A stretch of DNA of 52,893 nucleotides. Source: an uncultured Clostridiaceae bacterium (GTDB taxonomy: Bacteria > Bacillota > Clostridia > TANB77 > CAG-465). The stretch's first letter is position 1. Each line of letters opens with the position of its first letter. Below, one piece after another: positions 16,775-20,249 of the stretch. Under the pieces are notes generated by a model. The model ran no database searches, had not been told where the DNA came from, and saw only the letters and a program-made list of their open reading frames with translations. The stretch covers positions 1-52,893 of the forward strand of contig CANCXL010000012.1 of the NCBI GenBank assembly GCA_947381905.1. Direction: 5' to 3'. Position numbers and translations under genes: made by a program.

Positions 16775-17659
16775 TTAGCTTTGACTATTGTTTTTAACAG
16801 CTTTCTCTTTAATCCTTTCAATAATAGAGTAATCCGATATACATAGATTTTCTCCTATTCCTTTACCAATTTCTATAACTGGTTTTCTTTTACCACCATG
16901 ATAATCACTACCCACAGTAGGAATAAGATTATATTTATTACAATATTCTAAAAAATCTTGTCTTCTTTTTTCTCCATTATTAGGATTATACACTTCTATT
17001 CCACATAGTCCTGCATCTACAAGTTCTTTAATGAACTTTTCTTCTTCTTCATTTGTAAATCTTAAACTTTTTGGATGAGCTAAAACTGGTACTCCACCAT
17101 ACTCACATATTTTTCTTACAAGTTCTGTCGGAGTAAGCTTATTTCTTTTGACATAGCTCTTACCTCCATGATCTAGGTATTTTCCGTATGCTTCACTTGT
17201 TGACTTTACGTATCCTAGTTTTTTAAGAGTTCTTGCTATATCAAACCTACCAATACTTTTCTTATCCTTTGCATTATCAATTACATCTGTAAGTGTAATT
17301 TTTATGCCTTGATTTCCAAGTAATTTAATAGTTTTCTTTACACATTCATATCTGTCCATCTCATATAGATCTAATAACTTGCAAATATCTTTAGATATAT
17401 AGTAACCAAGTATATGACATACATGCTTCTTATCTTTAGAATAAGCTGACATATCTGCACCTATTTCAATTCCTGGTATAACTTCTATATCTTCTCCTGC
17501 AATCTCTGTTGCAATCTTATATGATGATACATTGTAATGCTCTGCAAGGCATATAACACCAACATTATTTTTTTTTGCCTTTTTTATTACATTTTCAATT
17601 GTATCGAAGCCGTCAGAATAATTAGAATGAACGTGTAGATCAATAAATTTATCATCCAT
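16775..17659 (-). CDS. PHP-domain phosphoesterase, copy 1
   Basis: A 294-aa PHP (polymerase and histidinol phosphatase) protein of the TrpH/YciV type, whose members hydrolyse 3',5'-phosphate nucleotides or degrade RNA 5'-3'. Metal-site motifs: 'FIDLHVHSNYSDG' (5-17), 'LAEHYN' (about 38), 'VIPGIEIGAD' (about 62), 'VLAHPKS' (about 195) and 'VGSDYHGG' (about 255). The ATG at 17659 is preferred over GTG at 17668, because AAGGAG lies 9 bases before the ATG but only 1 base before the GTG. It aligns end to end with the gene at 19254. The precise substrate is unknown. Confidence 0.82.
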   Translation of the reverse strand: MDDKFIDLHVHSNYSDGFDTIENVIKKAKKNNVGVICLAEHYNVSSYKIATEIAGEDIEVIPGIEIGADMSAYSKDKKHVCHILGYYISKDICKLLDLYEMDRYECVKKTIKLLGNQGIKITLTDVIDNAKDKKSIGRFDIARTLKKLGYVKSTSEAYGKYLDHGGKSYVKRNKLTPTELVRKICEYGGVPVLAHPKSLRFTNEEEEKFIKELVDAGLCGIEVYNPNNGEKRRQDFLEYCNKYNLIPTVGSDYHGGKRKPVIEIGKGIGENLCISDYSIIERIKEKAVKNNSQS

Positions 17660-17816
17660 ATTAATCACACTCCTTAATTAATCGGTGAAACAAAAATTTA
17701 ATAATCCAACGTCATATTATCATATAGAAAAATAAATGTCAATATAAAAATATGTGTAATCAATATAATACTTTTGAACAAACTATAATAAAACAGAACA
17801 GTAGGAGGTAAAAAAT

Positions 17817-18638: not shown

Positions 18639-18660
18639 TAAAATGGTTGTAGATAGAAAC

Positions 18661-18690
18661 AAGACGAAAATTAATTCGTCTTGTTTTTAT
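18661..18690 (+). terminator. Terminator after the alpha/beta hydrolase
   Basis: AAGACGAA (18661-18668) and TTCGTCTT (18675-18682) are followed by GTTTTTAT. Confidence 0.85.
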
Positions 18691-18749
18691 TAGCACATCA
18701 CATCAATCCATATGTTATATATGTAAAGGTAGTAGTTTCTTATATAACA

Positions 18750-18956
18750 TTAAGGGTTTTTATCTATAATATCTTTTATATCAAGAATTGTATCTTCTAT
18801 AGCATATATAAATAGTTCTTTTTCTCTATTTGATCTTGTAAGAGAAATTCTTTCTCCTAAGTGAACTATAGAATTTAAACAATTCATAATTTTCTCTAAA
18901 TCATTGATGTTCATGTTTGCGATAACACTAGCATCAAAATTAGTAGAATACATCAT
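18750..18956 (-). CDS. Small 68-aa protein with occluded ribosome site
   Basis: A soluble, acidic, helical small protein that I do not recognise (starts MMYSTNFDASV). A strong AAGGGGGTG site lies 5-8 bases before ATG 18956 (a second ATG follows at 18953). The message can fold so that both ribosome site and start lie in the loop of an 11-bp stem formed by 18979-18989 and 18926-18936; the inner arm encodes residues 8-11 (DASV). An upstream CCTCC can also pair with the GGGGG. Expression therefore looks post-transcriptionally gated. It has two upstream promoters and a terminator-like hairpin in its leader. Confidence 0.6.
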   Translation of the reverse strand: MMYSTNFDASVIANMNINDLEKIMNCLNSIVHLGERISLTRSNREKELFIYAIEDTILDIKDIIDKNP

Positions 18957-18989
18957 ATTTTCACCCCCTTAGGAGGACTGATGCTAGTG
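18926..18989 (-). promoter_or_regulatory. 11-bp hairpin enclosing the ribosome site and start of the 68-aa gene
   Basis: On the mRNA, CACTAGCATCA (18989-18979) pairs perfectly with TGATGCTAGTG (18936-18926). The 42-base loop contains CCTCC, the AAGGGGGTG ribosome site and both ATGs. CCTCC and GGGGG could form an extra inner helix. Confidence 0.55.
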
Positions 18990-19005
18990 CACGGTTTAAT
19001 ATATA

Positions 19006-19043
19006 CAAAAAAGGTATAATTACTTTCTTAGTAATTATACCTC
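19006..19043 (-). terminator. Terminator/attenuator in the leader of the 68-aa gene
   Basis: Arms AGGTATAATTAC (19012-19023) and GTAATTATACCT (19031-19042) form a 12-bp perfect stem with a 7-base loop. On the minus strand it is followed by six T, between promoter P2 and the gene. Confidence 0.7.
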
Positions 19044-19070
19044 AAATAAAATATGATATATTATACTTTA

Positions 19071-19099
19071 ATTATACCACTTTTTAAGGAAAAATACAA
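19071..19099 (-). promoter_or_regulatory. Promoter P2 upstream of the 68-aa gene
   Basis: On the minus strand TTGTAT (19099-19094), 17-base spacer, TATAAT (19076-19071). The transcript would start near 19064 and meet the leader terminator within about 60 bases. Confidence 0.5.
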
Positions 19100-19173
19100 A
19101 TAGGAGCAGATTTCTCCGCTCCATGAAATATTCTACTAGTATATAGGTCTATAAAATCGCAATCCCTATATAC
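19088..19173 (-). ncRNA. Candidate small RNA (about 85 nt)
   Basis: Promoter P1 predicts a start at about 19173, exactly the first base of a 9-bp hairpin GTATATAGG / CCTATATAC (19173-19165, 19147-19139). A second hairpin, GGAGCGGA-GAAA-TCTGCTCC (19122-19103, 8 bp with one G-T pair and a GAAA tetraloop), is followed by a T-rich tract and could terminate it. Between the hairpins lies TAGTAGAATATTTCAT (19138-19123), which can pair with the start region of the downstream 68-aa message (15 of 16 positions including one G-U). No coding potential. This is prediction only. Confidence 0.35.
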
Positions 19174-19179
19174 ATTTAT

Positions 19180-19208
19180 ATTATACCATATTTTTGTTTT
19201 TTATTCAA
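19180..19208 (-). promoter_or_regulatory. Promoter P1 for the candidate small RNA
   Basis: On the minus strand TTGAAT (19208-19203), exact 17-base spacer, TATAAT (19185-19180), preceded by GG. It lies just past the terminator of the PHP gene. Confidence 0.55.
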
Positions 19209-19253: not shown

Positions 19254-20150
19254 CTACTTACCCTTGCCCTGTTGCTTATCTAGTTTTGCTTTTTCTAGTT
19301 TAAGCTTTTTGACAATACTATCGTCTGTCACACATAAATTGTTGTTTATACCTGTACCGATATTTACTTGCGGCTTACGTGTAAGACTATGATAGTCACT
19401 ACCAACAGTAGGTATTAAGTCAAATTTTTCGCAAAGGTTAAGATAAAATGTGCGTTGGTCATCGTTGTTAAATGGTGTATATACCTCTATTCCCTTTAAA
19501 CCAGCCTCTGTAAGTTCTTCAATGAACCGCTTTGTAGTCTCTGTATCCAAATGAATACTTTTAGGGTGTGCTAGCACGGGTACTCCACCAAACTCGATGA
19601 TTTTTTTTACTAACTCCTTTGGAGATAGCTTTTTTCTCTTCACATAAGATTTGCCCTTATGGTCTAAATACATACCATATGCTTCTTGCGCTGTCATTGC
19701 ATAGCCTAAATATGCTAACGTAATTGCTACATCAAACCGTCCAATACTTTTCTTGTCTCTTGCATTTTGTATAACATCGTCTAATGTTATATTAATTCTA
19801 CGTTTCTGTAGCCATTTGATTGTTTCGACAACACATTCATATCTGTTCATCTCATATTCGTCTAGTACTGTACAAATACCATTAGATACAAAATATCCCA
19901 AAATATGACATATGTGTCTTTTCTCTTTTCCATATTTAGACATATCTGCTCCGATTTCTATGCCAGGAATGACCTCTATATCTGCTTTAGCGCAACGTTT
20001 AGCTTCTCTGTATGAAGATAAATTGTAATGTTCTGTTAGTGCTATGATACCAACATTATTCCGTTTAGCCCTTTCCATGACTAAATACACACTATCTAAA
20101 CCATCCGAATGGTCCGTATGAACATGTAGATCAATAAATTTACCATCCAT
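19254..20150 (-). CDS. PHP-domain phosphoesterase, copy 2
   Basis: A 298-aa paralog of the gene at 16775, alignable over its whole length: 'FIDLHVHTDHSDG', 'LTEHYNLSSYREA', 'VIPGIEIGADMS', 'VLAHPKS' and 'VGSDYHS' are conserved, so the metal site is intact. ATG 20150 is chosen over GTG 20157 on ribosome-site spacing. The DNA is visibly richer in G and C than its neighbours (codons such as CGT, CGC, ACG, GGC), although the upstream 20 bases resemble those of copy 1. Either an ancient duplication or acquisition of a homolog would fit. The C-terminus adds a basic KQQGKGK tail. Confidence 0.82.
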   Translation of the reverse strand: MDGKFIDLHVHTDHSDGLDSVYLVMERAKRNNVGIIALTEHYNLSSYREAKRCAKADIEVIPGIEIGADMSKYGKEKRHICHILGYFVSNGICTVLDEYEMNRYECVVETIKWLQKRRINITLDDVIQNARDKKSIGRFDVAITLAYLGYAMTAQEAYGMYLDHKGKSYVKRKKLSPKELVKKIIEFGGVPVLAHPKSIHLDTETTKRFIEELTEAGLKGIEVYTPFNNDDQRTFYLNLCEKFDLIPTVGSDYHSLTRKPQVNIGTGINNNLCVTDDSIVKKLKLEKAKLDKQQGKGK

Positions 20151-20249
20151 ATTTATCACTCTCCTTAATTAAATAGTGAACTTAAAATTTAAAAACCTTG
20201 TCGTTATATTACCATAATAGTCGATATTTGTCAACCATCCAACTTGACA

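Follow-up and report, generated by a model that had tools for sequence, protein, structure and literature searches.

Toxin mRNAs in which the ribosome-binding site (RBS) is masked and the 5' and 3' ends are closed upon each other are known (PMC6733600). The aapA/IsoA systems of Helicobacter pylori (PMC6733600) share with the locus described here the presence of several chromosomal paralogs, local hairpins masking the Shine-Dalgarno (SD) sequence, antisense RNA control and a long-distance 5'-3' interaction in the full-length mRNA. The SD-masking hairpins of aapA3 are replaced by the 5'-3' interaction (PMC6733600), and the same appears to hold here, but the predicted folds leave either state as the possible open form. 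AapA is a small toxic peptide and its antitoxin gene is antisense, whereas here the small RNAs (sRNAs) derive from separate, often tandem units on the same strand, the complement covers ~16 nt over codons 1-6, and the protein is predicted to be soluble, with a putative role as a toxin.

Antitoxin sRNAs that are not encoded opposite their target and that use a short pairing, as here, are those of Zor/Orz, TisB/IstR-1, ShoB/OhsC and DinQ/AgrB (PMC3919570, PMC4147584). Zor/Orz pairs over 18 nt, with a variable region giving the locus-specific recognition that the present loci also seem to have, and for OrzO 15 continuous pairs sufficed (PMC3919570), a need (~15 continuous) that appears similar to the pairing described below. 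These four systems differ in that their sRNAs are divergent and pair in a long 5'UTR, not at the start codon, and in their hydrophobic toxins; an RBS-enclosing stem reaching into the coding region is found here. In SymE/SymR and RalR/RalA (PMC4147584), both of type I, the protein is something other than a hydrophobic membrane peptide, and SymE and RalR are precedents for toxins of another kind (PMC4147584). RalA pairs in the coding region and SymR covers the start, but the proteins are nucleases and address arrays are lacking. In type III ToxIN (PMC8167048), too, a small gene is preceded by RNA units in tandem and by a terminator. The ToxI repeats, however, form one processed transcript that binds the protein, whereas the present units are separately promoted and terminated, each with an address complementary to an mRNA.

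The usual type I antitoxin gene lies opposite to or divergent from its target; the present units are on the same strand, in tandem, upstream or downstream. The copies of LhrC, an sRNA of Listeria, have common target-binding motifs and distant genes as targets. The likeness to LhrC (PMC4132741) is that of a multicopy sRNA gene family; the difference is that here every locus has a private address for the adjacent gene. The module is absent from Rfam, Pfam, NCBIfam and PHROGs. It looks as if it works like a type I system in an undescribed layout, and is a candidate member of that class.

The window, that is, the whole stretch of 52,893 nt that was analysed, comes from a gut bacterium and carries one such locus. 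A base-by-base re-reading agrees with the preliminary description for all motifs of the P1-P2 region, and the features are as follows.

19180..19208, minus strand: promoter P1 of the sRNA unit, TTGAAT-N17-TATAAT (TTGAAT 19208-19203; TATAAT 19185-19180), from the window sequence.
19139..19173, minus strand: sRNA 5' hairpin, GTATATAGG/CCTATATAC, conserved in 46 units.
19123..19138, minus strand: sRNA address (seed), TAGTAGAATATTTCAT, complementary to the start of the 68-aa gene.
19088..19122, minus strand: GAAA-loop hairpin (19122-19103) and T-rich tail, the intrinsic terminator of the sRNA, from the window sequence and the unit survey.
19071..19099, minus strand: promoter P2 of the small gene, TTGTAT-N17-TATAAT (TTGTAT 19099-19094; TATAAT 19076-19071), from the window sequence.
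19007..19042, minus strand: 12-bp leader hairpin with T6, attenuator-like or a 5' stabiliser.
18979..18989, minus strand: leader arm of the 11-bp stem enclosing the RBS and ATG, CACTAGCATCA/TGATGCTAGTG, which covaries across 18 genes.
18964..18976, minus strand: anti-SD/SD hairpin, CCTCC-TAA-GGGGG, within the loop of the enclosing stem; most of the 18 genes have a largely paired SD, E1 and B4 being exceptions.
18941..18956, minus strand: address target, ATGATGTATTCTACTA, codons 1-6 of the 68-aa gene, from its pairing with the linker.
18926..18936, minus strand: codon arm of the 11-bp enclosing stem, from stem covariation.
18750..18956, minus strand: 68-aa small gene (family A), stop codon included, a predicted helical hairpin, from translation, paralogs and predicted structure.
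18693..18709, minus strand: 3'UTR element complementary to the leader arm (5'-3' switch), pairing with 18990-18975 in the full-length fold, with leader-UTR complementarity throughout the family.
18656..18685, minus strand: terminator of the small-gene mRNA, from sequence analysis.

P1 begins past the stop codon and terminator of a PHP-domain gene on the minus strand, the -35 element of P2 sits inside the T-rich tail of the sRNA terminator, and the loop of the 11-bp stem contains the RBS and both ATGs. Counterparts of the 12-bp leader hairpin are seen by eye in the leaders of families A, F and G. On either side of the small gene lies a PHP-domain phosphoesterase gene (16775-17668 and 19254-20159 of the window, minus strand); the two are paralogs and resemble, below the cutoff, 3',5'-nucleoside bisphosphate phosphatase and RNase RNM.

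The complementarity between TAGTAGAATATTTCAT and ATGATGTATTCTACTA had been given as 14 Watson-Crick pairs and one G-U of 16 positions, and this is exact, the remaining position being a mismatch. The pairing energy of -17.6 kcal/mol is matched by one of 500 dinucleotide shuffles and by none of the 44 linkers of other loci, and the arrangement recurs at 16 other genes, so the complementarity goes beyond chance. The comparison used 45 linkers, whose limits were set by hand ahead of scoring, and 17 small genes with leaders of the same kind; gene B4 was added later, making 18. For every gene with a local unit (17/17), none of the ~43 non-local linkers pairs with codons 1-7 as well as the best local one, and the cognate energies are -12.2 to -21.8 kcal/mol, from 10-20 Watson-Crick and 0-2 G-U pairs. 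Permutation of the gene labels gave a mean of -7.03 (sd 0.47) and a best value, in 20,000 trials, of -9.66, against an observed mean of -11.96. The matching holds across at least three protein families without detectable similarity. An RNA complementary to and specific for the mRNA of the small gene, as expected of a type I system, is therefore present at the sequence level in 17/17 genes.

The strongest single observation comes from aligned paralogs. A1 and A2 are identical at 96% of leader, 90% of body and 94% of 3'UTR positions but at only 50% of the 18-nt address; the corresponding values for B1 and B2 are 83%, 91%, 89% and 53%. In both pairs the neighbouring sRNA has changed along with the address of its gene. 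Compensatory change of this kind had been set beforehand as a test, and seed and gene start do co-vary, at 17 loci. Because each paralog has a different address, regulation would be private to the locus.

The message itself carries further conserved structure. A stem between the leader and codons 8-11 occurs in all 18 genes, with 91.3% of cells paired and 12 of 14 pairs changed on both sides. Its covariation score is 0.649 against 0.257 (sd 0.028) in shuffles and at most 0.146 in slid versions; the arms were picked by eye, a bias that these controls reduce but do not remove. Together with the 5' hairpin of the sRNA, in which seven of eight pairs are changed on both sides, this stem supplies the compensatory changes that the preliminary description had proposed to look for. 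The SD is predicted to lie within its own small hairpin in most genes, and the masked SD and covarying stem together predict a primary mRNA that cannot be translated, as in type I systems. The leader is also complementary to an element of the 3'UTR just before the terminator (-20.4 versus -12.9 kcal/mol, sd 0.86; 0/5000 permutations), and this, with the window fold, corresponds to the 5'-3' long-distance pairing of full-length hok and aapA mRNAs. In about 11 of 18 genes the full-length folds have the leader paired with the 3'UTR in place of the codon arm, a count affected by some mis-assigned start sites in that fold set. For the window mRNA the forced local state is predicted to lie 11.4 kcal/mol above the 5'-3' state, in which the leader arm pairs with 18709-18693 and the SD with a CCC at the end of the ORF. 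A general 3'UTR anti-SD was significant in only 5/18 genes and is therefore not claimed. Downstream of the B-family genes there is a conserved segment, GATTCTAAGGCGCCCTAGAGATAATTCTTG...GGCTACTTCGTAGTC, maybe a further structured RNA (L041:4360-4060, L050:2820-2740, L087:1380-1480), and its part GATTCTAA complements the leader.

More than 45 sRNA units were found, many in tandem, all in one uncultured clostridial genus. Each has the same layout of promoter, 5' hairpin, exposed linker of 14-20 nt and intrinsic terminator. A TATAAT and a -35-like hexamer are present in nearly all of 48 units, spaced mostly by 17 nt, and automatic detection finds a terminator-like hairpin in most; having its own promoter and terminator-like hairpin, the unit is a minimal sRNA gene. 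In the 5' hairpin 98.6% of cells are paired, with a covariation score of 0.219, where shuffles give 0.129 (sd 0.008). In the predicted sRNA fold a hairpin stands on each side of the address, whose median unpaired fraction is 0.68 over 46 units; that of the window is about half unpaired. DNA searches of the genome itself and 37 relatives returned many copies, several as head-to-tail arrays of ~110 nt, the window unit being one of more than 20 in its own genome. A covariance model of the 5' hairpin (R1) matched 21 places there and further places in nine other genomes, all of the same genus, and a wider model from 46 sequences (R2) matched 15 of 28 genomes of the genus at E <= 0.1, though its weakest matches could be due to chance. 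Across the order, 8 of 287 genomes had hairpin matches, all within this genus, one of 45. The named carriers are metagenome assemblies, from the gut or uncultured: rabbit bin Lapin-033 bin11 (G003), sheep duodenum RGIG5622 (G040) and SRR8387714 bin.65 (G016).

A search for the hairpin pattern across GTDB genomes gave three true genomes of this genus; matches to T-box-like terminators upstream of metG-like genes in Clostridium proved on reading not to be units, and two more were rejected as unrelated chance matches. Rfam gave no relevant match for the window at gathering scores or for four related loci at E up to 5, the only matches at gathering or permissive thresholds being to tmRNA, tRNA, the L10 leader and the neighbouring T-box. 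Units without a matching small gene adjoin a gene that looks by eye like yabG in two genomes (L095:2578, L087:1618); a linker resembling theirs occurs in a related unit in G017:C8 (L163/L167). In G016 and G040 (L091:3011, L093:2734) a unit with the common linker AAATTGGTTTTTTCTGG precedes a T-box-like leader and a gene resembling pheS, again by eye.

The explanation we regard as probable, with some reserve, is a module resembling type I toxin-antitoxin systems, with sRNA genes on the same strand and proteins predicted to be soluble helical hairpins. P1 would drive a constitutive sRNA of ~85 nt in which a 5' hairpin, probably protecting the RNA end, is followed by ~16 nt of exposed address and by a terminator. 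P2 would give a self-locking mRNA, the leader pairing with codons 8-11 so as to place the RBS, ATG and address target in the loop, and the small anti-SD hairpin masking the RBS. Once the 3' end is complete, the leader could re-pair with the 3'UTR, and the full-length message may then be inert. Whenever the gene start is exposed, the sRNA would pair in trans over the AUG and codons 1-6 and block initiation, the duplex possibly being cleaved. The protein, if left unguarded, would presumably be harmful. The preliminary description proposed layered RNA control in which the complementary segments let a P1 RNA act on the P2 message; this proposal gains support at the sequence level from the co-change at 17 loci and the covarying stems.

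Several observations count against such a module. A5 (G000:C8:53.5 kb) is without a local unit, and its best linker, C14_3833 at -12.3, is not convincing; ~15 local units mismatch their neighbour gene. Most type I toxins are hydrophobic, but these proteins are polar or charged and inspection by eye shows no hydrophobic membrane segment. For many array units there is no known gene that matches; such units may be orphan antitoxins or may regulate other genes. A search for targets of two orphan seeds in their own genome stayed at chance level, near a reversed-pattern control, and none of the closest candidates checked falls at a gene start.

The proteins also speak for a rival reading, less probable though deserving real weight, in which the same RNA circuit controls a non-toxic regulator, inhibitor or partner kept off except under some condition. 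Family A occurs in the genome of the window only (nine copies including a remnant, the 68-aa window gene having eight paralogous copies), family B in that genome and G003, and families C/D/E/G in that genome, G012 and G019. No relation among the A, B and C/D/E/G groups was detectable where they were compared, and a common ancestor is not demonstrable. In the predicted structure of the 68-aa window protein (mean pLDDT 86.9) the N-terminus is disordered and the rest forms a helical hairpin, and one B-family protein is likewise modelled as a helical hairpin (77.3); a floppy N-terminus would fit an address that changes freely without harm to the fold. Profile searches of the small proteins against Pfam, NCBIfam, PHROGs, PADLOC and PDB, the set of libraries varying by family, gave no credible match, weak EzrA/spectrin-like matches to one C-family protein looking like coiled-coil noise, and Foldseek gave none with the predicted fold at E <= 0.001. 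Neither a relative of the small protein nor a hairpin match was present in 2.9 million viral contigs, and a phage origin was rejected on these grounds. Soluble folds with no toxin, phage or defence match, the housekeeping chromosomal surroundings and the rule that type I toxins are hydrophobic (PMC4147584) all favour a non-toxic protein.

The family is patchily present in a single genus, its paralogs have multiplied, and truncated remnants and target-less orphan sRNAs occur; all this is more typical of toxin-antitoxin or selfish modules. The remnants take several forms. At G016:C2:97389, found via R2, the linker TATTTTGACTATATGG faces ATGAGTAATAGTCAAAATAAAGC with 12 pairs (-13.0); the gene ends after 10 codons, keeping the leader arm and SD hairpin, and the matching sRNA is intact. 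Truncated, inverted gene copies lie just upstream of sRNA arrays at G000:C43:1479-1655(-), G003:C28:3419-3589(+) and G012:C69:128435-128572(-), each lacking its 5' part, that is, the leader and first codons. In G017, two units in tandem share the seed core of its sister species G019 and pair at -21.0 with the G019 gene, of which no counterpart was found in G017 itself. A toxin-antitoxin pair would be expected to leave such a trace, the sRNA outlasting its gene. One apparent orphan, the unit at G003:C49, was later found by protein search to adjoin a B-family gene (B4), whose start matches. These loci of G016, G017 and G003 came to light only once the address rule had been formulated, and they agree with it.

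The preliminary description had allowed for action of the P1 RNA in trans or, on read-through, in cis. The segments in the window are closely spaced on the same strand and the T tail of the unit is imperfect, as would suit an attenuator or switch that pairs only within a long P1 transcript. The units, however, have their own promoters and terminators, lie upstream or downstream of the target gene and in some cases stand alone, which favours the first of these two modes, and for seeds 3' of the gene (B1-B4, F2, G1) a nascent leader would be out of reach in cis; pairing in cis only is thus improbable. We consider it equally doubtful that the sRNA is an activator whose binding to the loop opens the leader/codon stem. 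In D1, D2 and A4 the first 5-8 nt of the gene, AUG included, do stay outside the pairing, which extends to the codon arm in D2 and A4, but in most genes the duplex covers the AUG and would block initiation. Single short complementarities are common in an AT-rich genome, but the permutation, shuffle and covariation controls and the later-found loci leave chance or base composition a negligible explanation for the features as a whole.

More tentatively, the loci may represent an undescribed class of RNA-addressed modules. Autonomous sRNA genes of fixed scaffold and exchangeable address would each be private to one self-locking mRNA, unrelated predicted soluble proteins would share one RNA chassis, and orphan addresses would act as immunity against genes lost or yet unmet. 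The apparent sharing of one RNA chassis by at least three unrelated protein families suggests that the control is older or more mobile than its proteins. We know of no described system of this sort in the lineage, which here offers a natural set of orthogonal sRNA/target pairs of 14-20 nt on one scaffold. How RNA antitoxins stay specific as paralogs multiply, and whether orphan RNA antitoxins serve as immunity, are questions that can now be tested.
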